A stretch of DNA of 36,409 nt from Chitinophagaceae bacterium (GTDB lineage: Bacteria > Bacteroidota > Bacteroidia > Chitinophagales > Chitinophagaceae). Location of the stretch: the NCBI GenBank assembly GCA_021738605.1, contig JAIPBY010000002.1, positions 1-36,409 of the forward strand. Reading direction: 5' to 3'. A model generated the notes under the pieces. It searched no databases. It saw nothing but the letters and a program-made list of their open reading frames with translations, and was not told the origin of the DNA. Made by a program: the position numbers and the translations under genes. Below are positions 20,250 through 35,522 of the stretch, piece after piece (the first letter of the stretch is position 1; each line of letters starts with the position of its first letter).

Positions 20250-22436
20250 CTATTGGTCCCTGTTGGAAAAAGCCTTGATGAACAAGGCCCCTAGGTTCTT
20301 GTGTGGGGGTATATAATTATCGAACCGTTCTTTTGCCACGCCTGTATTGAATTGCTTCTCCAGTTGATGCCAGATGCTGATCCAGTCTACCCCTTGCCCT
20401 AACCTGACGGACTCATTGATCATTTTCAATACCGGCTCATTGACAAGCTTGGTACCCACTTCTTTCGATGAAACGATATGGGCATCAGGGCAAATATTCA
20501 GCACAGTATTTAGGTTCTGGAAACTGCCGCAAGATCCCAAAACAATGATCTTGGCAGATGCAGGAAGCTGGTTGACTGTATACTTGAGGTGATAACTATG
20601 GCCGCGGTGAATAACAATTGTCGGCTGGAGGTTTTGAGCACGCAAATAACCAATCAACAAGGCCTGGGCCTTTGCATCAGGATCATCCCCCATCGAATTA
20701 TCCAAGGGGAGATTGGCAAATATCCATACGGGCCTGCCCACCAAAGACTTGATTTCAACCCAGTTCTCCTCTTGCACAATTTGCCATTCTTTTTTTCCCC
20801 GGAACATGGACATGAAGTTGGCAAATGACTCCTTTCCATCTTTGTCTCCGTAGTAAAAAACCTGTTGTACAATACGCCCGGCAGTGTCAGAAAGATTGGA
20901 CAAGGGAAGCGCATAAACAGGAGGAATACCATACTTCTGGGAAAGCAGCTGGGAGCTATCTGAGGCAGACATGAACAGCAGTTTGAGGATGTCATAAATG
21001 GCCACACCTCTTCCATTGCCAAGTGATTGTTGTTGTTTGAGGTTGTTCTCAATTTCAACCTTGACCAAATCCCTTATGGCTGTGTTGCTGATGCTCCCAT
21101 AAGAATCGGCCACATCTACAGCATCTTCAAGGTTTAGGTTTTTTTCCAATCCACGCACAAATCCCTTGATCAGGAGTTTTGCATTTTCTGCTGGCATGCT
21201 GGACAAGAAAAGATCGAGCTTGTTGTACGCAGCGGCCATCCTGACAAATTTCTTGAATCGGTCAAACCTCACTTCCATCAGCAGTGCATCTCCCCCACGC
21301 TTTTGCATGCGTCCCATCATCCGGTTGTATACACCCGTGTAGCTGGAGGTATAGATGACCTCTTCGCCAGTTACAATGATATAATACAATTCTGCGGCCC
21401 CAAGCGGTTCTAGAATCTTGAAGCGAACTGCTTCTGGCTCATCATGCAAGGCGTTGATCTCATTGATAAATATTTCCTCAGCCTTGCGTTTGATCATGAT
21501 TCCCATTTCCTCAAAAAGGATAGGCGTATCCTTTGCAAGCATATCATCCATGAACTGGATCTGGTTCTTGACCAACAACCGGTAGTAGGCGAGATTGTCT
21601 GTGGCAGTAGATTTGATGCTATCAACAGAAATTCTTCCTTTGAGGATGGAATGCAAAAACGGGAAAATCAATCTTCCTGAACTTTCATCAGCAATACCAG
21701 TGATCAGTTTCACCAGGGTATCGTCAATTGACCTTATCTTTTTCCCAATGGGTGTAGCAGCAGCAGCTGCATAATTGTAAAAGCTGGAGGGAAAATGATG
21801 TGCAGCAAGGATGATGAGGCTGTCTGCGAATGAAGCTTGAAGATAAGGTTCAATCCGGGAAAGGACCAGCTCTGGATGCAGTACAGCAAACTGCTTGAAC
21901 ATGATTATTCTTGATGAATCCAATGCTAGGTTTTCAAAAAAAACTGAATTTTCTCCCAGCAGCAACTTGTTGATGGTGTATGGAAAATAATCCACAATCC
22001 CAGCAATACCCATTCCCCTGATGTCCAGCCGCATGTATTGCCTATACGCTTCCAGCAAGGTTGCAGCTTCAGTGGCAGGCAGGGTATTGGAACGGAATGA
22101 CCGCAGTAAATCTTCAAGCAGGATGTTCAAACCAGACAAATATTTGACCTTGATCCGGTGGTCAGCTGCACCGTTTTTTTCAATTTCCAGCTGGAGTGCA
22201 TCGGTTTGTCGGGTATAGATATCGGTCAGCAACAGATCAAGATCCTGGTCCCTGCTGATGACAATCATTTTATCTGGCTTCCCGTCCAGCGCACAAATCC
22301 TTGATTGCAAGCCGTCAATATCCTCATGCAATTTTACCCTCCTGATGTCAATAACGGTATGGCTGCTGTCTTGGCCAGCAGCTGAAAAAGCCATAAACGG
22401 TAATAAAATCCATATAAACCTACGCAAAAGGAACAT
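20250..22436 (-). CDS. Secreted hypothetical protein (728 aa) with C-terminal caspase-fold/CHAT-like signature
   Basis: Signal peptide; C-terminal PTIVIHRGHSYH ... AKIIVLGSCGS (His and Cys after hydrophobic strands). Confidence 0.6.
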   Translation of the reverse strand: MFLLRRFIWILLPFMAFSAAGQDSSHTVIDIRRVKLHEDIDGLQSRICALDGKPDKMIVISRDQDLDLLLTDIYTRQTDALQLEIEKNGAADHRIKVKYLSGLNILLEDLLRSFRSNTLPATEAATLLEAYRQYMRLDIRGMGIAGIVDYFPYTINKLLLGENSVFFENLALDSSRIIMFKQFAVLHPELVLSRIEPYLQASFADSLIILAAHHFPSSFYNYAAAAATPIGKKIRSIDDTLVKLITGIADESSGRLIFPFLHSILKGRISVDSIKSTATDNLAYYRLLVKNQIQFMDDMLAKDTPILFEEMGIMIKRKAEEIFINEINALHDEPEAVRFKILEPLGAAELYYIIVTGEEVIYTSSYTGVYNRMMGRMQKRGGDALLMEVRFDRFKKFVRMAAAYNKLDLFLSSMPAENAKLLIKGFVRGLEKNLNLEDAVDVADSYGSISNTAIRDLVKVEIENNLKQQQSLGNGRGVAIYDILKLLFMSASDSSQLLSQKYGIPPVYALPLSNLSDTAGRIVQQVFYYGDKDGKESFANFMSMFRGKKEWQIVQEENWVEIKSLVGRPVWIFANLPLDNSMGDDPDAKAQALLIGYLRAQNLQPTIVIHRGHSYHLKYTVNQLPASAKIIVLGSCGSFQNLNTVLNICPDAHIVSSKEVGTKLVNEPVLKMINESVRLGQGVDWISIWHQLEKQFNTGVAKERFDNYIPPHKNLGALFIKAFSNRDQ

Positions 22437-22532
22437 TCAATGTAAAATTAAGACTTAATTTCCAGCACCACCTTTGTAGATCGCTTAACAATTTAATAAT
22501 CCAGCTTGAAGGTGTTATCCTGATCCTTAAGT

Positions 22533-22540
22533 TAACTTTG
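22533..22540 (+). promoter_or_regulatory. Candidate -7 element (TAACTTTG) for the response regulator
   Basis: TAnnTTTG match 18 nt before ATG 22559; overlaps the TTG used by the ORF track. Confidence 0.45.
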
Positions 22541-22558
22541 TGTAAACAACCCTTTATC

Positions 22559-23239
22559 ATGGCGCCAGCCGCAAAAAAAATCCTGATTGCAGATGATGAA
22601 CCCGATATTCTGGAAATCATCACCTACAACTTGCAGCTCCATGGATATGATGTGGTTACTGCCAAAGATGGAGACCAGGCCCTGCAAAAAGCCCGGGAAA
22701 CCAATCCAGACCTGATCATCCTCGACATCATGATGCCCAAGAAAAATGGCATTGAGGTCTGTAAAATACTAAGATCTCAACCAGCATTTGAAAATACACT
22801 GATTGTTTTCCTTACTGCCTTGAACGACGAACTCTCCCATGTAAAAGGACTTGAATTTGGGGCTGACGACTTTATCAGCAAACCAATCTCACCGAAAGTA
22901 ATGGTTTCAAAAGTGAACGCATTCTTCAGAAGGGTTGCCAAGCCTGAAGACTCCAAGGCGGTTGAGCTGGGTGATCTCAGGATTGAACCTGAAGAATACA
23001 TGGTCTATTACAAGGGACAACCCATCAGCCTTGCCAAAAAAGAGTTCGAATTGCTCAATTACTTGGCCTCAAAGCCCGGAAGGGTCTTTTTGCGCAATGA
23101 GATCCTGAACCAGATCTGGGGCAGCGAGGTGATTGTTGGAGACAGGACTATTGATGTACACATTAGAAAAATAAGGCAAAAACTGGGCGTAGATTGCATT
23201 ACTACGGTCAAAGGTGTTGGCTATAAATTTGACATCTGA
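22559..23239 (+). CDS. OmpR/PhoB-family response regulator
   Basis: KKILIADDEPDILEIITYNL, LIILDIMMPKKNGIEV, winged helix DRTIDVHIRKIRQKLG...TVKGVGYKFDI. Confidence 0.95.
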   Translation: MAPAAKKILIADDEPDILEIITYNLQLHGYDVVTAKDGDQALQKARETNPDLIILDIMMPKKNGIEVCKILRSQPAFENTLIVFLTALNDELSHVKGLEFGADDFISKPISPKVMVSKVNAFFRRVAKPEDSKAVELGDLRIEPEEYMVYYKGQPISLAKKEFELLNYLASKPGRVFLRNEILNQIWGSEVIVGDRTIDVHIRKIRQKLGVDCITTVKGVGYKFDI

Positions 23240-23278
23240 GTTAGGCCTAAATAAGCGTTGAATACTGTAGATTGCAGC

Positions 23279-24334
23279 ATGTTCGATTCTAAGAACTATT
23301 CTCCCCAAACTATTGCTTTGTTTTCAGCCACCTCGGTTGGCCTGATGGCTGCATTGATCGGTGGATGGATGTCCAACAGCATGGTTGGTGCCCTTGTTAG
23401 TTTATTGATCATTTTTTGTTTCACATTTTGGGTTGTACGCTTCTTGGTTGAAAAATTTATTCACCGGCAGATCAAATTGATTTATAAATTCATCAACCAA
23501 ACAAAAGCGTCAAAAAGAGAGGAGTTTTTTCAGAAAAAAATATTGCCCATGCAAAGACTTGAAGATGTTGGTGAAGAGGTTTTGCAGTGGGCTGACCAAA
23601 GAAAGGTGGAGATGGAATTGCTTGAAAAAAATGAAGCCTTTAGAAAGGAATTCCTTCAGAACCTCTCCCATGAATTCAAAACGCCAGCATTTGCCATACA
23701 GGGTTATCTGGAAACCCTTTTGGCGGGAGCCCTCGATAACCCTGAAGTCAGTCACAAATTTCTTACCAACGCTTTCAAGAATACAGAACGGTTGATCAAC
23801 CTGATTTCAGACCTCGACGAAATCACAAAACTCGAAAGCGGCAAACAAGAACTCCATTACCAGAATTTTATCATTCAAGACCTGATCAATGACGTGTATG
23901 AATCATTGACCATCAAGTCCGTGGCCAAAAACATCCATTGCCAGATCAAGAAAGGATGTGAGCAACCCATCAGGGTCTATGCAGACAAGGAAAAGATCAG
24001 GCAGGTATTGATCAACCTGGTTGACAATGCAATCAAGTACGGTAACCAAGAGGGAAAAGTTGAAGCAAGCGTTTACAAGACAGATGACAAAACCGTTCTA
24101 GTGGAAATAACAGACGATGGCATTGGCATTGCAGAAGAGCATATCTCAAGAATCTTTGAAAGGTTCTACAGGACTGACTATGGCAGGAGCAGAAACATAG
24201 GAGGAACAGGACTAGGCTTGGCCATCTGCAAACACATCGTTGAAGCCCATGGGCAATTCATTCAAGCAAGAAGCACACCGGGCATTGGCACTACCTTTGG
24301 CTTTACCCTGAAGAAAATAAAAGAACAGGTTTAA
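23279..24334 (+). CDS. Sensor histidine kinase (PhoR-like)
   Basis: Two TM segments; NLSHEFKTPAFAIQGYLE H-box, LVDNAIKYG N-box, DDGIGI, GGTGLGLAICKHIVEAHG. Confidence 0.95.
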   Translation: MFDSKNYSPQTIALFSATSVGLMAALIGGWMSNSMVGALVSLLIIFCFTFWVVRFLVEKFIHRQIKLIYKFINQTKASKREEFFQKKILPMQRLEDVGEEVLQWADQRKVEMELLEKNEAFRKEFLQNLSHEFKTPAFAIQGYLETLLAGALDNPEVSHKFLTNAFKNTERLINLISDLDEITKLESGKQELHYQNFIIQDLINDVYESLTIKSVAKNIHCQIKKGCEQPIRVYADKEKIRQVLINLVDNAIKYGNQEGKVEASVYKTDDKTVLVEITDDGIGIAEEHISRIFERFYRTDYGRSRNIGGTGLGLAICKHIVEAHGQFIQARSTPGIGTTFGFTLKKIKEQV

Positions 24335-25365
24335 GCCGACGCAATCAAGTCCATTGGTGCTTCAACGAGGCTAGACAACTTACCATGAACCACTGACTCG
24401 ACTATTTTTTCAACTGGTGTTGACAAAGAGAATGGCAAAGATTGTCCACCATCAAAAATCCACTTGTTAAAATATGCAGGGAAATAATCATCAATGGCAT
24501 CAACTACTGCTACATTAAATTCCTTCAAAGCGGCAGCATTACAGGCCTGCTCATATTGCCCATGCATAGGTAATACCATCAACTGCTTACCCAAATACAG
24601 CGCTTCAGCAGGGGTCTCAAACCCTGCTCCAGTAATCACACCATGAGATCTGATCAGGCTATCATCAAACATGGCTTGACTCAAAGGCAAAAATTTTATA
24701 TTGTCTTCCTGAACCACAGCATCGACCTTCTTTGAAAAAAGATGAAACTTAAAATTTTTTAATCGTTGCAGCTGCTTGACTACCACATGATCTGCATAGT
24801 GCCCAAGATAGACGGTTATATGCCCCTCATTGACGGGTGTGGCATTCAGGATGGAAGGTTTGATAACAGGAGAAAATATATTGTTATCATACTGTTTGAA
24901 ATGAAGCCCTACAGATCTTGTTCCTGTCGCATAGTTGGACAATACCCATTCTCCCAGTGGATTTTTCACTTTGGGCCGAGGCACTTTTTTACTTACAAAA
25001 CTTGCCTGATGCCCAAAATGGACAGATGGAATACCTTTTAATTTGCATGACAAAGACGTGATGCATTCAAAATCATTGATGACCAAATCGTATTTTTCAA
25101 TGGGAAGAAATCTTGCTTCACTGAATATCTTTCGAAACCGTACTCCAACAATAGTCTTCATCACATCTATACCCCCTGACTGCTCATCATACTGCAAACT
25201 GACCCCTTTGCTTCTGTATGCAACAGGCATTGACGTTTTTAATGCACTGTTGTTACCGCTGAGAAAAATATCAACATCGCCGTATTTTTGCAACAGCGGT
25301 ACAATTGCGTTTGCCCTGCTGATATGGCCATTTCCGGTGGCCTGAACTGCATAAAATATTTTCAT
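24331..25365 (-). CDS. GT-B (MurG-like) glycosyltransferase family protein
   Basis: FYAVQATGNGHISRANAIVPLL; ITGAGFETPAEALYLGKQLMVLPMHGQYEQACNAAAL. Confidence 0.82.
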   Translation of the reverse strand: MKIFYAVQATGNGHISRANAIVPLLQKYGDVDIFLSGNNSALKTSMPVAYRSKGVSLQYDEQSGGIDVMKTIVGVRFRKIFSEARFLPIEKYDLVINDFECITSLSCKLKGIPSVHFGHQASFVSKKVPRPKVKNPLGEWVLSNYATGTRSVGLHFKQYDNNIFSPVIKPSILNATPVNEGHITVYLGHYADHVVVKQLQRLKNFKFHLFSKKVDAVVQEDNIKFLPLSQAMFDDSLIRSHGVITGAGFETPAEALYLGKQLMVLPMHGQYEQACNAAALKEFNVAVVDAIDDYFPAYFNKWIFDGGQSLPFSLSTPVEKIVESVVHGKLSSLVEAPMDLIASA

Positions 25366-25370
25366 CAGGA

Positions 25371-26231
25371 TCAGTGTGTTGCAGTGGCAATTGAAGTAAA
25401 GAACAATGCCACTTCATCAGTAAGTACGTTGAGCATGGGAATCCGATTGTTGCTGCGCATCTGAATTACTTCCGGGACAGCATGCTCTTTTTCATTGAAT
25501 GCATGGATGCTCCAGGCCCCTTCGTTATACTCCAGTGTTGTCAGATTTTCAATCCAATCTCCACTATTCATGTAATTGACAGAACCCAACCCCGTAGAAA
25601 TGGTTCGTATTTGTGGCTGATGAATATGACCACAAATCACCGTATCATATCCTTTGGCGATGGCCAACTCTGCTGCAGTTTGCTCAAAATCACCTATCCA
25701 TGCAACGGCCTTTTTTACACCATTCTTGACCTTCTTGCTAAGACTCATTTTCTCACGGCCCATTGTCTTGAGCACCCAGTTGATGGCCCTGTTCACCAAA
25801 ATCAAAAGGTCATAACCATGCCCACCCAATTTTGCAATCATTTTGGCACTCCCCTTGGTTGTTGCATCAAATACATCCCCATGAAAAATCCAGGTTTTTT
25901 TACCGTCAATTTCAATCACCAACTTATCAACCATTTGAAAATTACCCAATTGTATACCACTATATCTCCTGAGCGATTCGTCATGGTTTCCCGTGATGTA
26001 CACTATTTGTGTTCCTCTTGCAATCATGCCAAATATTTCCTTGATAACCTGCATATGGGAAGCCGGAAAATAGTGCTTTTTGAACTGCCATATATCAATG
26101 ATATCGCCATTCAATACCAACAGTTTTGGGGAAATACTTCTGAGATAAGATACCAGTTCTGATGCATGGCATCCAAAAGTGCCAAGGTGAACATCACTGA
26201 TTACGGCAACTTCTAGCTTTCTCTTGTTCAT
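25371..26231 (-). CDS. Metallophosphoesterase, PlcP/LpxH-like
   Basis: ISDVHLGTFGCHA, NGDIIDIWQFKK, ITGNHDESLRRYSG, HGDVFD, VICGHIHQP, YMNSGDWIE. Confidence 0.88.
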   Translation of the reverse strand: MNKRKLEVAVISDVHLGTFGCHASELVSYLRSISPKLLVLNGDIIDIWQFKKHYFPASHMQVIKEIFGMIARGTQIVYITGNHDESLRRYSGIQLGNFQMVDKLVIEIDGKKTWIFHGDVFDATTKGSAKMIAKLGGHGYDLLILVNRAINWVLKTMGREKMSLSKKVKNGVKKAVAWIGDFEQTAAELAIAKGYDTVICGHIHQPQIRTISTGLGSVNYMNSGDWIENLTTLEYNEGAWSIHAFNEKEHAVPEVIQMRSNNRIPMLNVLTDEVALFFTSIATATH

Positions 26232-26258
26232 GATTTATGGGTTTTATAAAATTCCCTT

Positions 26259-26291
26259 TATACCATTAACCGAATGTTAGCAAGGCGTAAA
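26259..26291 (-). promoter_or_regulatory. Three tandem 11-mers TTTACGCCTTG/CTAACATTCGG/TTAATGGTATA (candidate PhoB-type box)
   Basis: 11-bp phased YTAACRY-like repeats ending 27 nt before the metallophosphoesterase ATG. Confidence 0.55.
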
Positions 26292-26320
26292 TAAATCTTG
26301 ATGTAAACCTGAAGGAATTG

Positions 26321-27202
26321 TTATGTAGTGGCCTCAGCATAGAGATGCTGAACCAGTCCATCCGCCAGCCCAATTTTGGGAACCAGCATCTCTTCCATGT
26401 TGCCCCATTTCATGATTTGAAGGTAAATCATCAGTGCAGGAACAATCACATCAGCCCTGTCTGGCCGGAGGTTATAGAGGCGTATTCTGTCTTCTACTGT
26501 GCAAGATGAAAATTCTTTGTAATAATCTTTGAGCACATCGATGTGCAGGGGCTTGCCATCTTTTTTCTTGCTGAGAGAAAATATCTTGTTGATATTGCCT
26601 CCGGTTCCTATGGCAATGGTATTTTTTTGACCGCGTAAATTATCACGCAGTGCCTCTTTCATTTCTTGCCAATCAGCATCTGTAACCATGTTCTTGAGCA
26701 AACGAATGGTCCCAATGTTGAATGAATGCTTGTATACCAGGGCATTGTTGGAAAAAAAGGTGAGTTCGGTGCTTCCCCCACCCACGTCTACGTAAAGGTA
26801 ATTGTTGCTGGCGTTGAGGTTTTCTGCCACATGTGATTCATAAATCAAAGACGCCTCAAAATCACCTGAGATTACTTTTATGTTGATACCAGTTTCAAGA
26901 AATATTTTTCTTACAACCTCATCTCTGTTCCTGGCATCTCTCATTGCACTGGTGGCAACAGCGATTGACTTTTCAACCCCATAGGCATTCATGAGGTGAG
27001 CATAGGCCTTCATGGTTTGAAGGATCATGTGCTTTTTTTCCTTGGAGATCTCGCCGGTTTCAAACACATCAAATCCCAAACGCAGGGGAACCCTGATCAG
27101 ATTGAGTTTATTGAAGTTAGCAATACCATTTCCATCCACCGTAACCTCGGAGATCAGAAGCCTGCTTGCATTGGTTCCAATATCAATTGCCGCCAGTCGC
27201 AC
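26321..27202 (-). CDS. Ppx/GppA family exopolyphosphatase-like protein
   Basis: AAIDIGTNASRLLI, VDVGGGSTELTFF, IGTGGNINKIF. Confidence 0.93.
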   Translation of the reverse strand: MRLAAIDIGTNASRLLISEVTVDGNGIANFNKLNLIRVPLRLGFDVFETGEISKEKKHMILQTMKAYAHLMNAYGVEKSIAVATSAMRDARNRDEVVRKIFLETGINIKVISGDFEASLIYESHVAENLNASNNYLYVDVGGGSTELTFFSNNALVYKHSFNIGTIRLLKNMVTDADWQEMKEALRDNLRGQKNTIAIGTGGNINKIFSLSKKKDGKPLHIDVLKDYYKEFSSCTVEDRIRLYNLRPDRADVIVPALMIYLQIMKWGNMEEMLVPKIGLADGLVQHLYAEATT

Positions 27203-29282
27203 GTTGCTTTAAGGGTTGTTTTTTTACCAGATAGTTATAAATCTCCTGCTGTGAACGCATTCGTTTTTTCCCAGGTGAAGATACATAGTTGTTGATAAAC
27301 TCAGGATCCAAAATTCTTGCTTTTACATTGTCAGACAGTTGGATTTTCAATACTTCCAACAACTCCTTCTTCAAGTCGTTATCGACAATTGGACATGCTG
27401 CCTCTACACGATGATCAAGATTCCTCACCATCCAATCTGCACTGGAGATATACACCAAAACATTCCCCCCGTTATGAAAAACCAAAATCCTGGCATGCTC
27501 CAAATACTCATCGACGATGCTGATCGCATAGGGCGATGCCTGCTTTTTCTTTATTTGCGTTTTAGCAGAATATATACCACGAATAATGAGGTTGACTTCA
27601 ACGCCAGCCACAGAAGCCTGATTGAGTTTTTCAATCAGGGAAACATCACTGAGCGAGTTCAACTTAAGAGTAATGGAGGCAGGAAATCCCTTTTTTGCTT
27701 CCTTAATCTCCTTGTCAACAAGCTCAGTTATTTTCTTCCGCATGCCGACCGGACTTACCAACAAGGTTTTGCACTCTTCAAGGGTACCTGCGTGTGAGAC
27801 TGGATTCTCAAGATAGTAGAATATCCTGTTGATATCCGCCATGATGTTCCTGTTGGAAGTAAGCAGGCAATGATCGCCGTAAAAATGAGCCGTTTTTTCA
27901 TTCAGGTTTCCTGTACTGACAAAGCCATATTGAATGGTTTTGTTTTGCACACGCTTGTTGATGATACATACTTTTGCATGTACTTTCATGTTTGGAATGC
28001 CTAAAATAACTTTTACACCCTCCTCCTCTAACACTGTTTTCCATTCGAGGTTTGCCTCTTCATCGAATCTGGCCTTTAACTCCAACATCACTTCCACTTT
28101 TTTACCATTGCGGGCTGCATTGACCAAGGCATTGATCACCTTGGATTCTGAAGCAAGCCTGTAGGCAGTAATTTTGATGGACTTAACGTCAGGATCGATG
28201 GCGGCTTCTCTTAGTAAGTCAATGATGGCATTAAATGAATGATAGGGAAAATGCAACAACACATCTTTTTTGCCGATTACATCCGTTACCCTTATGGCGG
28301 AATTCAAATCTGGATGAGGGATAGCGGTCATTTTCCCTTTGGTTGCTGGAAACACATCAGGAAAATCCATAAAATGTTTAAAATTATGGATGCGTCCACC
28401 TGGAATGATGCTTGATTTACTGTTGAGCTTCAACTTCTTTGTGAGGTAGTTCAATAGCCCGCTGTTCATCTCCTTATCATATACGAAACGAACAGGTTTC
28501 CCTTTACGTCTTTTCTTGAGCCCTTTCTGCATCTTTTCTACCAGCGATGTACTGATATCGTTATCAAGGTCTAATTCAGCGTCCTTGGTGACCTTGAAAA
28601 TATGCGCTTCAAAATGGTCATACCCAAAATAGGAAAATATATAGGGAAGATTGACCCTTACAATATCTTCAAGGAGAATGATATGTGTTTCTTTTTTGTC
28701 TGTGGGCAATTTGACAAACCGTCCAAGGGTTTTGGAGGGAATCTCAATCAGCGCATATTGCTGCTTGTATGCAGAGTTCTTCTTCTGCATCACCACGCCA
28801 AGATAAATACTCTTGTCCCGCAAATAAGGGAGTTCTGGCAAACTCTCAATCATCAGGGGGATGATATTTGAACGAACTTCTTTCTCAAAAAAATCAATGA
28901 CAAAGGACTTTTGATCCCTTGTGAGTTGTTGATCATTCTTAAGAAAGACCTTGTTTTTTTTCAGTTCAGTCTGAATATTGACCCAGATCCTGTCAAATTC
29001 ACTTTGTTGTTTCAAGACAATATGGAGTAAATCAACCAAAATTTCTGAGACGGCATCTTCCATGTGGAGATTGAGTTTGGTTTTGGACGAACGAAATTCT
29101 GCCATCCTTTTCAATGTAGCCACGCGTACACGAAAGAATTCATCCATGTTGTTGGAAAAAATCCCAAGGAAACGAATTCTTTGATTGATTGGAACAGTAG
29201 GGTCGTTGGCTTCCTGTAAAACCCTTGCGTTAAAACTCAGCCAACTGATATCGCGCTGTACAAAAGTCGACTTATTGACCAT
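27183..29282 (-). CDS. ppk1: Polyphosphate kinase 1
   Basis: RDISWLSFNARVLQEA, NMDEFFRVRVATLKR, LLHFPYHSF, TAYRLASESKVINALVNAARNGKKVEVMLELKARFDEEANLEW. Confidence 0.97.
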   Translation of the reverse strand: MVNKSTFVQRDISWLSFNARVLQEANDPTVPINQRIRFLGIFSNNMDEFFRVRVATLKRMAEFRSSKTKLNLHMEDAVSEILVDLLHIVLKQQSEFDRIWVNIQTELKKNKVFLKNDQQLTRDQKSFVIDFFEKEVRSNIIPLMIESLPELPYLRDKSIYLGVVMQKKNSAYKQQYALIEIPSKTLGRFVKLPTDKKETHIILLEDIVRVNLPYIFSYFGYDHFEAHIFKVTKDAELDLDNDISTSLVEKMQKGLKKRRKGKPVRFVYDKEMNSGLLNYLTKKLKLNSKSSIIPGGRIHNFKHFMDFPDVFPATKGKMTAIPHPDLNSAIRVTDVIGKKDVLLHFPYHSFNAIIDLLREAAIDPDVKSIKITAYRLASESKVINALVNAARNGKKVEVMLELKARFDEEANLEWKTVLEEEGVKVILGIPNMKVHAKVCIINKRVQNKTIQYGFVSTGNLNEKTAHFYGDHCLLTSNRNIMADINRIFYYLENPVSHAGTLEECKTLLVSPVGMRKKITELVDKEIKEAKKGFPASITLKLNSLSDVSLIEKLNQASVAGVEVNLIIRGIYSAKTQIKKKQASPYAISIVDEYLEHARILVFHNGGNVLVYISSADWMVRNLDHRVEAACPIVDNDLKKELLEVLKIQLSDNVKARILDPEFINNYVSSPGKKRMRSQQEIYNYLVKKQPLKQRATGGN

Positions 29283-29377
29283 GTGATGTTATTATTTAGT
29301 ATTTATTCAGGTGAAAATTAAAACATTATAACACAAGTTGTTTGATTTGATTTTTGTTTACAGTAACTTAATACAGC

Positions 29378-30592
29378 ATGAAAACCATGAGGATAGTCAT
29401 AACCATATGTTTTTTGGCTTTTGGGGGGTCAATTTCTGCCAAAGCTGATGCCTATGCCGAAACCCATGAGATTCGCTTTTCCTTTCTTGGAAATGAACAT
29501 ACCATTGAATACCAGGAACCACCCAAGGGATTCCCCAACAGCTTCAATAAAGCCAGCACCTTCCCCAACATGGTAAAGCTGCTGGATGCCTATTGCACTG
29601 ATATAATTCCCGAATTGTCAACCATCAGGAAAAGGCTACATTTATCAGACTGGTATTACTATCAACTGATCAGAAAGGTGTCTCAACAGCTCGTTCCCAA
29701 AGAGAAAGACTATTGGGGATACACCTATTGCAAATGGTTTTTCCTGGCCAGAAGTGGATTCAATCCTGTGTTGTGCACCATGGATGACAAATTATTGCTT
29801 TACATCAAAAGCAATTCAACCATCTACAATATCCCCATCAAAGTAATTGGAGAAAAGCAATATGTATGCATGAACTATCATGACTATAACCATGATATAC
29901 CCATTGAAAAAACAACTCCTCAACCCGTTCAGCCATCCTTCGTTGAAAATAGCGAGGATTTTAACTATATGATTGCTACCATGCCCGATTTCCCAGAAGA
30001 AAAATATGTCAACAAAACCATTGAATTCAAATACAAAGGGGAGACCGCAAAACATGACATAAAGGTATTCCCCGAGATCAAGGATTATTTCATCAACTAC
30101 CCGGTAACAGACTACAGATTTCAATTCAATATACCCTTCAGCAAACTGACTTATTCATCGCTTATACCATCTTTACAATTAAAACTCAAGGACAAAACAA
30201 AGGAAGATGGAGTAGAATACATCATGTTCTTTGTAAGGAACGCATTTGGGTATGAAGCAGACTCGCTGATGTATGGTAGAGAAAAAAGATTTTCACCAGA
30301 AGAAACTTTGGCCTCAGATTGGAGTGATTGTGAAGACCATGCGGGATTATTTTTTTCACTGGTCCGTGAGGTGTATAATCTTCCCATGATCGTACTCAGC
30401 TATCCAGATCATATCAATGTAGCAGTAAAACTTGAAAAGTTCAAAGGAAAGACCATCCTGCACAATGGCAGCATATATACCATTTGTGAGCCTACACCAC
30501 AAAAAAAAGTATTTTTCCTGGGACAGATGGAGAAGAAATTAAGCAAACAACCCTATGAAGTTGTCTATGAATATGTTCCAAGTAGATTTTGA
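29378..30592 (+). CDS. Exported transglutaminase-like / cysteine peptidase-like protein
   Basis: Signal peptide; SDWSDCEDHAGLFFSLVREVYNLPMIVLSYPDHINVAV resembles a transglutaminase-core Cys...His arrangement. Confidence 0.6.
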   Translation: MKTMRIVITICFLAFGGSISAKADAYAETHEIRFSFLGNEHTIEYQEPPKGFPNSFNKASTFPNMVKLLDAYCTDIIPELSTIRKRLHLSDWYYYQLIRKVSQQLVPKEKDYWGYTYCKWFFLARSGFNPVLCTMDDKLLLYIKSNSTIYNIPIKVIGEKQYVCMNYHDYNHDIPIEKTTPQPVQPSFVENSEDFNYMIATMPDFPEEKYVNKTIEFKYKGETAKHDIKVFPEIKDYFINYPVTDYRFQFNIPFSKLTYSSLIPSLQLKLKDKTKEDGVEYIMFFVRNAFGYEADSLMYGREKRFSPEETLASDWSDCEDHAGLFFSLVREVYNLPMIVLSYPDHINVAVKLEKFKGKTILHNGSIYTICEPTPQKKVFFLGQMEKKLSKQPYEVVYEYVPSRF

Positions 30593-30613
30593 TTCAGCCC
30601 TATTGAATCGCTT

Positions 30614-31072
30614 CTATTTAGCATATACATTGATAGAATCAATCAATTGTTGAGACCGCTCTCCCATCCGTGTAAAATATTTTTCACCATTCTTGATAAA
30701 CGAAAAAGTATTGCAAGAATCAGCGTTAGAAAAGTATACCACATCAACAATATCACCTTTCCCATAGAAATACAATTTACCCAGGGATGGACAGTTGTTA
30801 TTAGCGGCAATTGGGGCACTGTTGACATCTTCAATGATTGGCTTCAATAATTGAAGATCTAAAATTTTTAAAACCCTGTAAAAACGAGGATTAGCAGGCG
30901 TTTTATAATAAATAACCGCAGCACTGTCCGCAGCATTGATTTGATCCATCTTTCCTTTGGGGACGATCGGCGTATATTGCCTGGAAGCAAGATCTTCTGA
31001 TTTATTTTCCTCTCTGCTTTTACATGAGTTCAAAAATGAAACCAGCAATAAAAAATATAAATAATGTTTCAT
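30614..31072 (-). CDS. Hypothetical lipoprotein
   Basis: MKHYLYFLLLVSFLNSCKS lipobox. Confidence 0.65.
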   Translation of the reverse strand: MKHYLYFLLLVSFLNSCKSREENKSEDLASRQYTPIVPKGKMDQINAADSAAVIYYKTPANPRFYRVLKILDLQLLKPIIEDVNSAPIAANNNCPSLGKLYFYGKGDIVDVVYFSNADSCNTFSFIKNGEKYFTRMGERSQQLIDSINVYAK

Positions 31073-31086
31073 GGTAAGTCAATAAA

Positions 31087-31113
31087 AAAGCCACTTCTTT
31101 ATGAAGTGGCTTT
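31087..31113 (-). terminator. Intrinsic terminator after the beta-helix-like lipoprotein
   Basis: AAAGCCACTTC-tttat-GAAGTGGCTTT, A/T runs on both sides. Confidence 0.9.
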
Positions 31114-31131
31114 AAAAATACTATTTTTTGT

Positions 31132-32523
31132 TTAGTAAGCCTTGTTTTGAGGATCCCAGTTTGTCCAACCAGTGGTCCAATCAGCAGTACCCATGGCACC
31201 ACGGAAAGTGGTAGCAACAAAATATGAATTCATTCCTGTGAAGTTTACACCAGTAAGGGCAGGTGATCCGGTTCTAGGAAGGAAGTTGGGTGCTGTAGAA
31301 TAAAAAGGAGCGTTCAACATGGCTGCGTCAGCATTAGCCAAGGTAACAGTACCTTCAGCTTCAGCCTTTGTCTTCATCTGTGCTGGTGTTACAATGGCCA
31401 AAGCAGCTGCATCAGTCCTGTATATGGCTGCTGCATCGTTAGAATGAAGCAGATTGTTTCTGAATTCTGAAGTGTTATCAACAAAGAATGCCTTCGCAGT
31501 AGCAGCAGATTCGAATGAAAGTCCACCTTTAGGCCATCCGATGATAATAGAATTTCTCAAAACAAACTGAGTTGCTCTTCTCCACCTGTTTCCAAAATTG
31601 TGGTTCGCTGCAGTTCCAGTTGCATTGTTGGCACCCACAAAGGTAAAATTACTCAATTGAGGCCTTGTAAAAGGAGCAGCAGTTGTGCCTGTACCATCAT
31701 TATCACACTCAATACCATTTGCTGCGTCACCACCATCTACAAAATCAGGTTTGCGACATGCAATACCGTACTGTATTTTACCAGTGTATCCAAAATCGAA
31801 ATCATAGTCGTCATCAGCAGTCGCAAAAGCTACAAGGTTCTTGCAATTTACTGTACCGCCAAAAAACTCATAGGCATCATCATTACCAAAAGAAACCTGA
31901 ACATTTTCAATGATGGTGCCAGAGCCAACACCACCCATGGTAAGTCCATTGATTTCAGAACCGGGCTCTGCTGCAATACCAGCATATTCAATACGAACAA
32001 AACGCAGGATTCCACTTTCATCATTGGCTACAGTACCACCATACTTACGGCCAACACCACCTTCAACGACAGGAGCCGGATCCTGAGGGCGGTTTGTCGG
32101 AGCCTTACCCAAGAGGATAATGCCACCCCAGTCACCAGGCGTTCTTTGTCCGATTGCTTTTCCGCTGGTGAATACAATGGGTTCTGTAGGCCTTCCGTCA
32201 GCAATCAACTTGGCACCCCTTTCAATGATCAAGGCACCTTTCTCGGTGATGTCACTGACAACAACACTTCCAGGAGCTAAGGTAAGGGTATTCCCTTCGG
32301 TGATATAAACATAGCCTTTGAGCGTATATTTACCCTTGGGCAAGTAGTAACTTTTGCTCAATATACCCTGGATTATACGTCCGTTGGTAGCAGGATCCTG
32401 AGGATCTGTACCTACAGCTCCGCCACCGGTTGTATTGTTGATGGTTTCCTCGAAATTAACCTTGATACAAGAACTGAAAGAGAGCATTGCGATGGAGAAA
32501 AGTCCAAAAAGGATTTTTTTCAT
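31132..32523 (-). CDS. Outer-membrane lipoprotein, parallel beta-helix-like
   Basis: MKKILFGLFSIAMLSFSSC lipobox; repetitive YVYITEGNTLTLAPGSVVV...LIIERGAKLIADG...GGIILLGKAP pattern; 34 nt downstream of the TonB receptor gene. Confidence 0.8.
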   Translation of the reverse strand: MKKILFGLFSIAMLSFSSCIKVNFEETINNTTGGGAVGTDPQDPATNGRIIQGILSKSYYLPKGKYTLKGYVYITEGNTLTLAPGSVVVSDITEKGALIIERGAKLIADGRPTEPIVFTSGKAIGQRTPGDWGGIILLGKAPTNRPQDPAPVVEGGVGRKYGGTVANDESGILRFVRIEYAGIAAEPGSEINGLTMGGVGSGTIIENVQVSFGNDDAYEFFGGTVNCKNLVAFATADDDYDFDFGYTGKIQYGIACRKPDFVDGGDAANGIECDNDGTGTTAAPFTRPQLSNFTFVGANNATGTAANHNFGNRWRRATQFVLRNSIIIGWPKGGLSFESAATAKAFFVDNTSEFRNNLLHSNDAAAIYRTDAAALAIVTPAQMKTKAEAEGTVTLANADAAMLNAPFYSTAPNFLPRTGSPALTGVNFTGMNSYFVATTFRGAMGTADWTTGWTNWDPQNKAY

Positions 32524-32557
32524 AAACTGTGTTTTGTCTGTTTGTTGCTAAAGATTT

Positions 32558-35377
32558 TTATTTATTTTTTTTGCTGATGTTGAAGTCATAAGTGAAACCA
32601 ACTGTAATGGTAGAACCCGGCTTATAGGCATTGAAAAGCCTGTCCACACCCTCTTTGTATGCAGTAGCTTCATCAACGTTTTCATAGAAATAAAATGCAT
32701 TGTTGAGGATATCTGCGAAATTGATTTTCAACTCTCCCTGACCAGCCAATACTTTTTTGGACAACTGCAAATCCAACTGGTTTCTTGGACGCTCAAATAC
32801 GTTGGGGAACTCATCATTTCCAACAAGTGTCAATCTCTCACCAACCCTGTTGTAGAGCAAAGAAGCATTGAATGAAGAACCATTGTATTGAAGACCAGCA
32901 TTGATCAAGTACGGAGACTGACCTTGCAATGGCCTGTTGGCTTTTATTTCCTTGTTTCCAGCACTCAGGTCTTTGAAAACAACCTCTGACTGAATGAAAG
33001 TATAGTTACCAAAAAAGCTGAGGTTTTTCAAAGATGGGGACAGAAACTCAAGTCCTTTCCTAACCTCGAGCTCAAAGCCAAGAGTGGTAGCACTTACAGC
33101 GTTTTGGTAGAAATATCGGCGAGAATCAGCATTGCTGGATGGATCAAGCCTGAATTCAATTGGATCAGTAAAATCTTTGTAGAAGGCACCCAACGTTATC
33201 GCCTCTCCAGCCTTGGGGTACAATTCATAGCGAACATCATAATTGAGAATCGAACTTCTCAGAAGGCCAGTATCACCCTTTACACCATAGTTCATTTCAT
33301 AATCATAGAACGCAAATTCTGCAATTTCTCTGAACTCAGGGCGGGCAACCGTTCTGCTGGCAGAAAGCCTGACATTCTGTTTATCGCCAGCGTTGATGAC
33401 CATATTAATAGAAGGAAGATAATCCCACTTCTCAGTAAGCTTTGTATTTCTCAAACCAGTCTGGTCTTTTGATGTAAGCAACTGCTGAAAATTTTCAGCA
33501 CGCAATCCCCAAATGAAACGAAAAGGTCCAACCTTGTTATCCAACATTCCATAGGCGGCATTCAAAATGGATACTCCAAAATACCTATCCTGGTTGTTGG
33601 TAAACTCATCAAGGATATACCCGTTTTGACCCATGTTATCATAGAAGAAAGCAGATTCAACAGGCTTGTAGGCATTGGCAGCTACAAAAGAGTTGAGGTT
33701 GGTTGTAACGTAACGGAAAATCCGGCTTTTGAAATCACGAACCCTGGCAAGGCTGGAGCCACCAAGCTTCAGTGTTTGTTTATCCTTGCCACCCCAGTTC
33801 ATCGGTACAATAAACTGTCCACCACCACCAAAACTATAATCACTCAACTCACTGTGAAATCTTCTGGTATCGTCCGGATCAATCTCAAACTTTTCATTGG
33901 TATTGATGGACCTGGCGTATAAGGCAGTCCGAAGGTCTGGCTGCTTTTTCAAGTTGTAACCAGCATTTCCATTCCATTTGAACTTGATGCCCTTGGCAGT
34001 GAGCTGGTGCTCTCCCTCAAGCTGAGCACTGTAGAGTGACCGCTGGTTGAGGTAAGAGGAATAAAATTGTATATCATTCAGCCTGCTGGTATTGTAGCCA
34101 TTTCTGGTGTAATAATTGTCTTCAAACAATTGATTGAAAAGGTTTTTCAATGAAACCTTGTGTTTCCCCTTTACCCATGTAATATTGGCCACTGCACCAA
34201 GATTGGTCTGGTAGCGGTTCTGGTTGTCATTGAAGTTGAATATCGTTGTCCCATTTGCCTCATAAAAAGAACGCTCCACGTTGTAAACCAACATCGAATT
34301 CCTATAATTCGCTGCAATCAGGACACCAAGGTTTGCACCATTTTTTAAGCTATGGTTTTTGGCATATGTGATGTTGAATGTTTTGATGGGAGCTGCGTTG
34401 GTAGACACTTGCTGGTAAACATCTCCCCTGAAGAGCTTAGTCAACTCAACTTGCTTGTTAAGTCCTGCAGCATCCTTTCCCAAGACCCTGTATAATTGTG
34501 CAGTAGCTGGAAAACTATCTGGCAGGCTTCTGGTGCCATCATCAAAACCAAGCCAATCATATTGGTTGCGCTGATTGCTGATAAAGGGCTTGAAAGTTGA
34601 TTGGGTATTGTATCCAAGGCCAAATCCTACCGTAAGTACATCTTTTGTAGGAATATCTTTTGTATTTACTTGTACAAGTCCACCCGAAAACTCACCGGTA
34701 AATTCAGGTGTAGCTGTTTTGTTGATGATAACATTGTCTATCAACGCGGCAGGGAACATATCAAATGAGAAAGCTTTTTTGTCTGGTTCGCTGCTGGGCA
34801 AGAGGGCTGAATTCAGCATGGCAGAATTGTAACGATCGGACAAACCGCGAACAATGACAAACTTGTTATCCTGCACTGAAGCACCACTTACACGCTTCAA
34901 GACCTCTCCAGTATTCTTATCTGGTGTTCTCCTGATAAAATCAGCAGCCAATCCACTGGACATCGCTGTATTGCTTCTTTGAAAAGTCAACAAGGCAATG
35001 CTGCTCTCTTGGCGACGGGTAGACTTGATGACGATTGCGTCACTGTTTTTGGTTTGTGGATCCAAGACAACTACCATAGCGTTGTCCCCATTGATGCTGA
35101 CTTCGATTTCAGCAATTGATTTGGTATTGTAACCAACACTGGAAACAGTGAAACTGTATTTTTTGCCAGTCTCCAATGAGATGCTGAAATTACCTTCTAC
35201 ATCTGCAACAACCACTTTTTTTGTTTCTTCAACCAAGATAGAGGCCCCAGCAATAGGCTCATTTTTTGTATTGACAACCTTACCAGATATTTTCTGTACC
35301 TGCGCAAAAACAGATCCAGACAACAAAATGGTTATGACCAATAAAACAGATATCCTTAATTGTGAGAGCTTCAGCAT
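32558..35377 (-). CDS. TonB-dependent outer-membrane receptor with CarboxypepD_reg-like N-terminal domain
   Basis: Likely start MLKLSQLRISVLLVITILLSGSVFAQ; ISGKVVNTKNEPIAGASILVEE, plug VSGASVQDNKFVIVRGLSDRYNSAMLN, C-terminal ITVGFTYDFNISKK. Confidence 0.94.
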   Translation of the reverse strand: MLKLSQLRISVLLVITILLSGSVFAQVQKISGKVVNTKNEPIAGASILVEETKKVVVADVEGNFSISLETGKKYSFTVSSVGYNTKSIAEIEVSINGDNAMVVVLDPQTKNSDAIVIKSTRRQESSIALLTFQRSNTAMSSGLAADFIRRTPDKNTGEVLKRVSGASVQDNKFVIVRGLSDRYNSAMLNSALLPSSEPDKKAFSFDMFPAALIDNVIINKTATPEFTGEFSGGLVQVNTKDIPTKDVLTVGFGLGYNTQSTFKPFISNQRNQYDWLGFDDGTRSLPDSFPATAQLYRVLGKDAAGLNKQVELTKLFRGDVYQQVSTNAAPIKTFNITYAKNHSLKNGANLGVLIAANYRNSMLVYNVERSFYEANGTTIFNFNDNQNRYQTNLGAVANITWVKGKHKVSLKNLFNQLFEDNYYTRNGYNTSRLNDIQFYSSYLNQRSLYSAQLEGEHQLTAKGIKFKWNGNAGYNLKKQPDLRTALYARSINTNEKFEIDPDDTRRFHSELSDYSFGGGGQFIVPMNWGGKDKQTLKLGGSSLARVRDFKSRIFRYVTTNLNSFVAANAYKPVESAFFYDNMGQNGYILDEFTNNQDRYFGVSILNAAYGMLDNKVGPFRFIWGLRAENFQQLLTSKDQTGLRNTKLTEKWDYLPSINMVINAGDKQNVRLSASRTVARPEFREIAEFAFYDYEMNYGVKGDTGLLRSSILNYDVRYELYPKAGEAITLGAFYKDFTDPIEFRLDPSSNADSRRYFYQNAVSATTLGFELEVRKGLEFLSPSLKNLSFFGNYTFIQSEVVFKDLSAGNKEIKANRPLQGQSPYLINAGLQYNGSSFNASLLYNRVGERLTLVGNDEFPNVFERPRNQLDLQLSKKVLAGQGELKINFADILNNAFYFYENVDEATAYKEGVDRLFNAYKPGSTITVGFTYDFNISKKNK

Positions 35378-35405
35378 ACTTAAAATTGATATGCAAAGAA
35401 ACAAT

Positions 35406-35471
35406 CCCGGCATTAAGCAAGCGTTAGCACTATGTTAACCAATTGCAATGCGTATGTTACCGTAATGTTAA
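35406..35471 (-). promoter_or_regulatory. Six consecutive 11-mers upstream of the TonB receptor (candidate PhoB-type box)
   Basis: Minus strand TTAACATTACG GTAACATACGC ATTGCAATTGG TTAACATAGTG CTAACGCTTGC TTAATGCCGGG; five of six fit NTAAYRY; ends 28 nt before the ATG. Confidence 0.6.
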
Positions 35472-35522
35472 GAAGGGAAAATCTTGTTAAAATTTCCCAT
35501 CTTTGTTAAATAAAACCATCGT

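Follow-up and report, generated by a model that had tools for sequence, protein, structure and literature searches.

An 11-bp repeat array, very probably a PHO box, precedes the plcP-agt and TonB receptor operons of a Chitinophagaceae bacterium

The window analyzed here is the whole stretch of 36,409 nucleotides at positions 1 to 36,409 of contig JAIPBY010000002.1 (Chitinophagaceae bacterium, assembly GCA_021738605.1). Positions 20250–35413 are a conserved phosphate cluster, made up of 728aa-phoBR-404aa-agt-plcP-ppx-ppk-lipoprotein-receptor, which a genome of the same genus (L031) retains except for a relocated 404-aa gene and which is rearranged in two others (L050 and L068). The genes and promoter elements discussed below are:

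22485..22503, plus strand: two-unit box upstream of phoB, TTAACAATTTAATAATCCA, at -51/-40 from the TTTG at 22537–22540
22559..23239, plus strand: PhoB-like response regulator, which probably starts at the in-frame ATG 22559 (listed ORF start 22538)
23258..24334, plus strand: PhoR/PnpS-like histidine kinase (model matches)
24331..25365, minus strand: Agt-like glycosyltransferase (pairing with plcP)
25371..26231, minus strand: PlcP-like metallophosphoesterase, of the phospholipase C type of phosphate-starvation lipid remodelling (gene pairing with agt, model scores)
26247..26250, minus strand: TTTA, degenerate -7 box of the plcP promoter, TTTG in relatives (alignment of 53 orthologs)
26259..26324, minus strand: predicted PHO-box array of the plcP-agt operon, six units at 11-bp spacing (sequence, matrix scan, spacing statistics)
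31132..32523, minus strand: lipoprotein with a predicted beta-helix fold, kin to the Flavobacterium phoBR-locus lipoprotein, FII type (PMC8115612, sequence comparison, structure prediction)
32558..35377, minus strand: TonB-dependent receptor, start at 35377
35394..35397, minus strand: -7 box of the receptor promoter, reading TTTG and lying 18 nt past the T of the last unit (sequence)
35406..35472, minus strand: six-unit array upstream of the TonB receptor, with two degraded units reaching ~35494 (sequence, matrix scan)

The glycosyltransferase adjoins the metallophosphoesterase in 39 of the 40 neighbourhoods compared, as in the PlcP-Agt lipid-remodelling pair, and the two products are putatively a phospholipase C and a diacylglycerol glycosyltransferase. 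LpxH, the lipid A diphosphatase, was rejected as an identity for the metallophosphoesterase, because its scores of 50.1 and 43.9 bits are below the NCBIfam equivalog cut-offs of 134 and 190, respectively. The adjacent regulator and kinase have PhoB and PnpS/PhoR as their best models, with the regulator scoring 228.7 against an NCBIfam equivalog cut-off of 296.2 for PhoB and the kinase likewise falling below the PhoR cut-off. In Flavobacterium a single clear ortholog of the regulator stands out, at 1.5e-74, the next match reaching 7e-38. For the receptor, the start is taken at 35377 and not at that of the longer reading frame, 35413, a position within the array. The lipoprotein is 30–36% identical to the Flavobacterium phoBR-locus lipoprotein, and its predicted structure is a beta-helix (mean pLDDT 87). 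The fold search gave weak, low-TM-score matches, mostly beta-helices, the best being tailspike and pectate lyase-type proteins, and no relative was found among solved structures by sequence search.

On the minus strand, positions 26291–26259 read TTTACGCCTTG CTAACATTCGG TTAATGGTATA, which are the three 11-mers of the original prediction, with the sequence and coordinates it had given. Its distances also hold, the plcP array ending 27 nt before the ATG at 26231 and the receptor array, whose last unit is TTAATGCCGGG (35416–35406), ending 28 nt before the ATG at 35377. The extent of the plcP array was underestimated, however: the three units are real, but they are the last half of an array of six (TAACAAT, TCAGGTT, TCAAGAT, TTACGCC, TAACATT, and TAATGGT; 26259–26324), which fills the gap between ppx and plcP, its first unit overlapping the ppx stop codon. 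The TTTA box follows 18 nt after the T of the last unit and lies 19 nt before the ATG. By itself, the three-unit observation is weak (p=0.011 at a spacing of 11, and 0.065 over spacings 8–14, in ~280 dinucleotide shuffles). The six units score 22.8 at a spacing of 11, against at most -4.9 at the other spacings from 8 to 14 (p<0.004).

The original prediction was to fall if footprinting found no conservation of the 11-bp-phased cores. PlcP orthologs are present in 154 of the 198 genomes of the family, and 53 plcP upstream regions were aligned solely on the TTTG box near the ATG. In these, TWA(C/T)AT units stand at an exact 11-bp spacing, the last one 18 bp before TTTG, and the box is ~19 nt before the ATG. 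A T is found at -51, -40, -29, and -18 from TTTG in 45–49 of the 53 regions, followed by conserved A positions; these core positions carry near or above 1 bit, whereas most letters between the cores are near background. Core-to-core distances in 50 of the upstream regions peak at 11, 22, 33, 44, and 55 bp (z of 62, 51, 37, 17, and 13). With a leave-one-out matrix, 48 of the 53 plcP orthologs reach at least 16 bits and five fall below, as opposed to 11 of the 407 other genes; most of these eleven encode SusC/Oar-type receptors, a porin-like protein, or phosphodiesterase-like proteins. No array of at least 16 bits was found before agt (0 of 37) or before phoB and phoR (0 of 8). Because ppx is directly upstream of plcP in close relatives only, the upstream gene varying between genomes, the conservation of the array belongs to plcP. 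Receptor orthologs mostly have arrays as well, of up to six or seven units, with the last unit 18 bp before a CTTTGC-type box; their selection permitted offsets of 52–54, and 53 was found every time. The cores are thus conserved before both genes, at an equal distance from the -7 box.

The relationship between the two promoters was also seen with a matrix trained on the plcP promoters of other genera only, so that receptor promoters were outside the training set. On the window (~73,000 positions), this matrix placed the receptor promoter first, with 22.4 bits, and the plcP promoter second, with 20.2 bits. Outside the two arrays the window did not exceed 9.4 bits, 3 Mb of simulated sequence gave no score of 18.6 or above, and column-permuted matrices peaked at 16.1 bits. 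In the 40 neighbourhoods it picked out ~925-aa receptors, with up to 34 bits, and it also matched receptor promoters of relatives and porin-PstS operons. Since a matrix that never saw a receptor promoter finds them, the plcP and receptor operons share one operator, and the proposal that both belong to one regulon is supported.

The same promoter array had been described as missing upstream of ppk1, the two-component genes, the 728-aa gene, and the gene at 29378. The matrix scan of the window found none before ppk1, ppx, or the 728-aa gene, and upstream of the gene at 29378 there is only a sub-threshold match of 8.8 bits. For the two-component genes the absence is not complete, because phoB is preceded by a two-unit box that keeps the phase of the arrays and is conserved in two other genomes (L031 and L060), which suggests a weak autoregulation. 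The gene at 29378 (29378–30592, plus strand) is the 404-aa gene, and its orthologs in four genomes (L031, L062, L066, and L068) have a four-unit array upstream, reversed with respect to the gene and without the activating geometry. Searches of the own genome with exact and near-exact strong-core patterns gave nothing useful, the units being too degenerate for them.

Whole genomes were scanned with a profile built from 64 sites; its training set includes plcP, receptor, and pst promoters, and it is therefore independent for other genes only. New sites were found before Porin_O_P with PhoU_div, PHO4 with PhoU_div (PiT/DUF47), phytases, and a His_Phos_2 operon. Further sites precede agt alone, PF22494 proteins, many outer-membrane receptors, and porin-PstS operons in genomes not used for training, the porin-like gene upstream of pstS having no Pfam match and being called a porin by length, position, and N-terminus only. 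The PstS loci with arrays are L102, L103, L106, L108, and L112. PF12849 was discarded as a marker for PstS, as it mostly retrieved binding proteins of 300–340 aa without arrays (19 loci, one at 18.7 bits), which were used as a negative control. The own genome, 74% complete, yielded no PstS. There, both window promoters and a site preceding a SusC-SusD pair are among the seven best profile sites, with modest E-values (0.03). Other candidate arrays in the own genome (G000:C163:2411, G000:C76:5273, G000:C28:4537, and G000:C43:22757) precede a PF22494 (choice-of-anchor I) protein, a SusC-SusD pair, a gene with a GH116 N-terminal domain, and a DUF2490 gene. Across relatives, arrays also precede phosphodiesterases and SusC-type receptors. 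SusC-type receptors of ~1070–1150 aa with arrays of their own lie near plcP in six loci (L041, L047, L061, L062, L066, and L070), several of them divergent from plcP, and these are probably phosphate-utilization receptors.

Published expression data are available for Flavobacterium johnsoniae, in which phosphate depletion induced the receptor (log2 8.02), lipoprotein (9.91), glycosyltransferase (5.42), PlcP (8.59), and PhoB (3.06), while the porin, the oprP ortholog, was not significantly changed (PMC8115612). Two Flavobacterium genomes, from relatives of that strain and not the strain itself, have phoB-phoR-porin-glycosyltransferase beside the receptor and lipoprotein, arranged as in the F. 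johnsoniae phoBR locus. In both, the best matches of the matrix within 20 kb precede the receptor (22.0 and 18.6 bits), porin (16.2 and 15.6), and lipoprotein (13.6 and 12.6) of this locus, the glycosyltransferase reaching ~10 and 8 bits. The array before oprP is an exception, given that its ortholog was uninduced. The family matrix transfers poorly to Flavobacterium plcP, where the repeats come in pairs, the upstream one shifted, although the -29/-40 phase is kept. Several low-scoring matches over the whole genome of F. johnsoniae CI04 are not before phosphate genes and are probably noise. The window cluster resembles the PhoBR-linked PUSIV cluster of F. johnsoniae (PMC8115612) in having a TonB receptor and a related FII lipoprotein near phoBR, and the same array fronts the Flavobacterium version; it differs in adding ppk1-ppx and plcP-agt and in the modest identity of the lipoproteins given above. 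The terms 'Pho box' and 'binding site' do not occur in the main text of PMC8115612.

The arrays have the features of the PHO box bound by PhoB or PhoP in E. coli, B. subtilis, and Streptomyces, namely direct repeats close to the promoter, each of 11 nt of which seven are conserved and four loose, before phosphate-starvation genes (PMC4415409), here porin-PstS, PHO4/PhoU_div, porin, and phytase genes. The core is different, TWA(C/T)AT in place of the CTGTCAT of E. coli or the GTTCACC of S. coelicolor; PHO-box consensus sequences vary between species, and CTGTCAT is not a defining feature of them. Also different are the number of units, four to eight instead of the basic two, and the constant 18 bp that separate the last T from the Bacteroidota TTTG -7 box. 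The main sigma factor of flavobacteria recognizes a TAnnTTTG -7 box (PMC9723704), and a PhoB mutant of B. fragilis retained only a trace of pstC expression (PMC3547664). Putative Pho boxes have been marked near plcP in marine bacteria, including Alphaproteobacteria and Flavobacteria (PMC4796936), and the plcP-agt operon described there is similarly a metallophosphoesterase and glycosyltransferase pair with a PhoB site upstream, although the family is different here, the boxes are likened by description and not by letters, and the enzyme roles are putative. Judging from these sequence features, the 11-bp arrays are very probably a PHO box, through which PhoB would bind and activate, and which would place the plcP-agt and receptor operons under one control. 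The low-phosphate reading is supported by the array-bearing genes (porin-PstS, PiT/DUF47, porin, phytase) together with the published Flavobacterium induction, and the adjacent PhoB-PhoR pair is the most likely candidate for the regulator.

PhoB-type proteins bind tandem 11-nt direct repeats head to tail in other phyla (PMC4415409). By analogy, phosphorylated PhoB, probably the product of 22559–23239, would occupy the four to eight tandem TWA(C/T)AT units in the same manner, with one DNA-binding domain per 11-bp unit. As the array ends 18 bp before TTTG, where the -7 box of the sigma-A promoter begins, its last units would overlap the -33 region, and PhoB would thus most naturally activate by substituting for the missing -33 contact and recruiting RNA polymerase. 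Under phosphate shortage, plcP-agt would be switched on to strip the head-group phosphate from phospholipids and rebuild glycolipids, and the TonB receptor and lipoprotein would take part in cell-surface scavenging of phosphorus compounds.

It is unlikely, in our view, that the arrays are instead bound by a different OmpR/PhoB-family regulator, or that a second regulator shares the site, with phosphate as an indirect signal. Such a reading could appeal to the sub-cut-off scores of the window regulator, to the tandem repeats read by OmpR-family proteins in general, and to arrays before many SusC/Oar-type receptors and dnaB, which are not obvious phosphate genes; against this, arrays precede the porin-PstS, PiT/DUF47, porin, and phytase genes and the phosphate-induced Flavobacterium cluster, and at a threshold of E<=1e-15 the PhoB-like protein has a single other match among the regulators of the own genome (1.5e-27). 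Very improbable is a purely structural role, as phased bends or as an extended -33/UP element: the array does abut the promoter and is phased near one helical turn, but its core is sequence-specific and confined to a functional class of genes, being absent before agt and nearly all other genes. A chance likeness of two promoters in AT-rich intergenic DNA, for which the p value of the three plcP units over any spacing might be cited, has practically no probability left: conservation in many genera and the 16.1-bit peak of column-permuted matrices speak against it, and the blind recovery with a foreign matrix has already refuted it.

As a kind of switch the PHO box is already known, but no description was found of how it is spelled and laid out in this bacterial group. 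A literature search, which did not cover subscription papers, found no sequence definition of a PHO box for Bacteroidota or for this family. Bacteroidota are abundant in soil, water, and gut, and work on their phosphate response has so far relied on expression and mutants. With a consensus of fixed geometry, the regulon can be predicted from sequence; such a consensus also links unnamed receptors and lipoproteins with the scavenging of phosphorus and lends support to lipid remodelling under phosphate control in the family.

The replicative helicase gene dnaB carries an array in 12 of 30 genera, against 11 of the 407 other genes (Fisher p ~9e-10; L345, L346, L348, L349, L351, L352, L355, L358, L359, L363, L367, and L368), mostly without TTTG at the activating position. 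In the own genome, dnaB (G000:C150) has a TA(T/A)ATTCG element, and no array was found. A tentative idea, which we hold to be somewhat doubtful, is that one PhoB array works from two opposite positions in this family, activating scavenging genes from upstream of the -7 box at a fixed -18 and, just downstream of the putative dnaB promoter, acting as a roadblock that would lower the helicase in phosphate starvation. If the dnaB arrays are functional, phosphate supply would be linked to chromosome replication. At a 13-bit threshold, 13 loci have the TA(T/A)ATTCG-type element near a dnaB array, and in all of them the element is 21–26 nt upstream of the array, which would accordingly sit just after the start of transcription.
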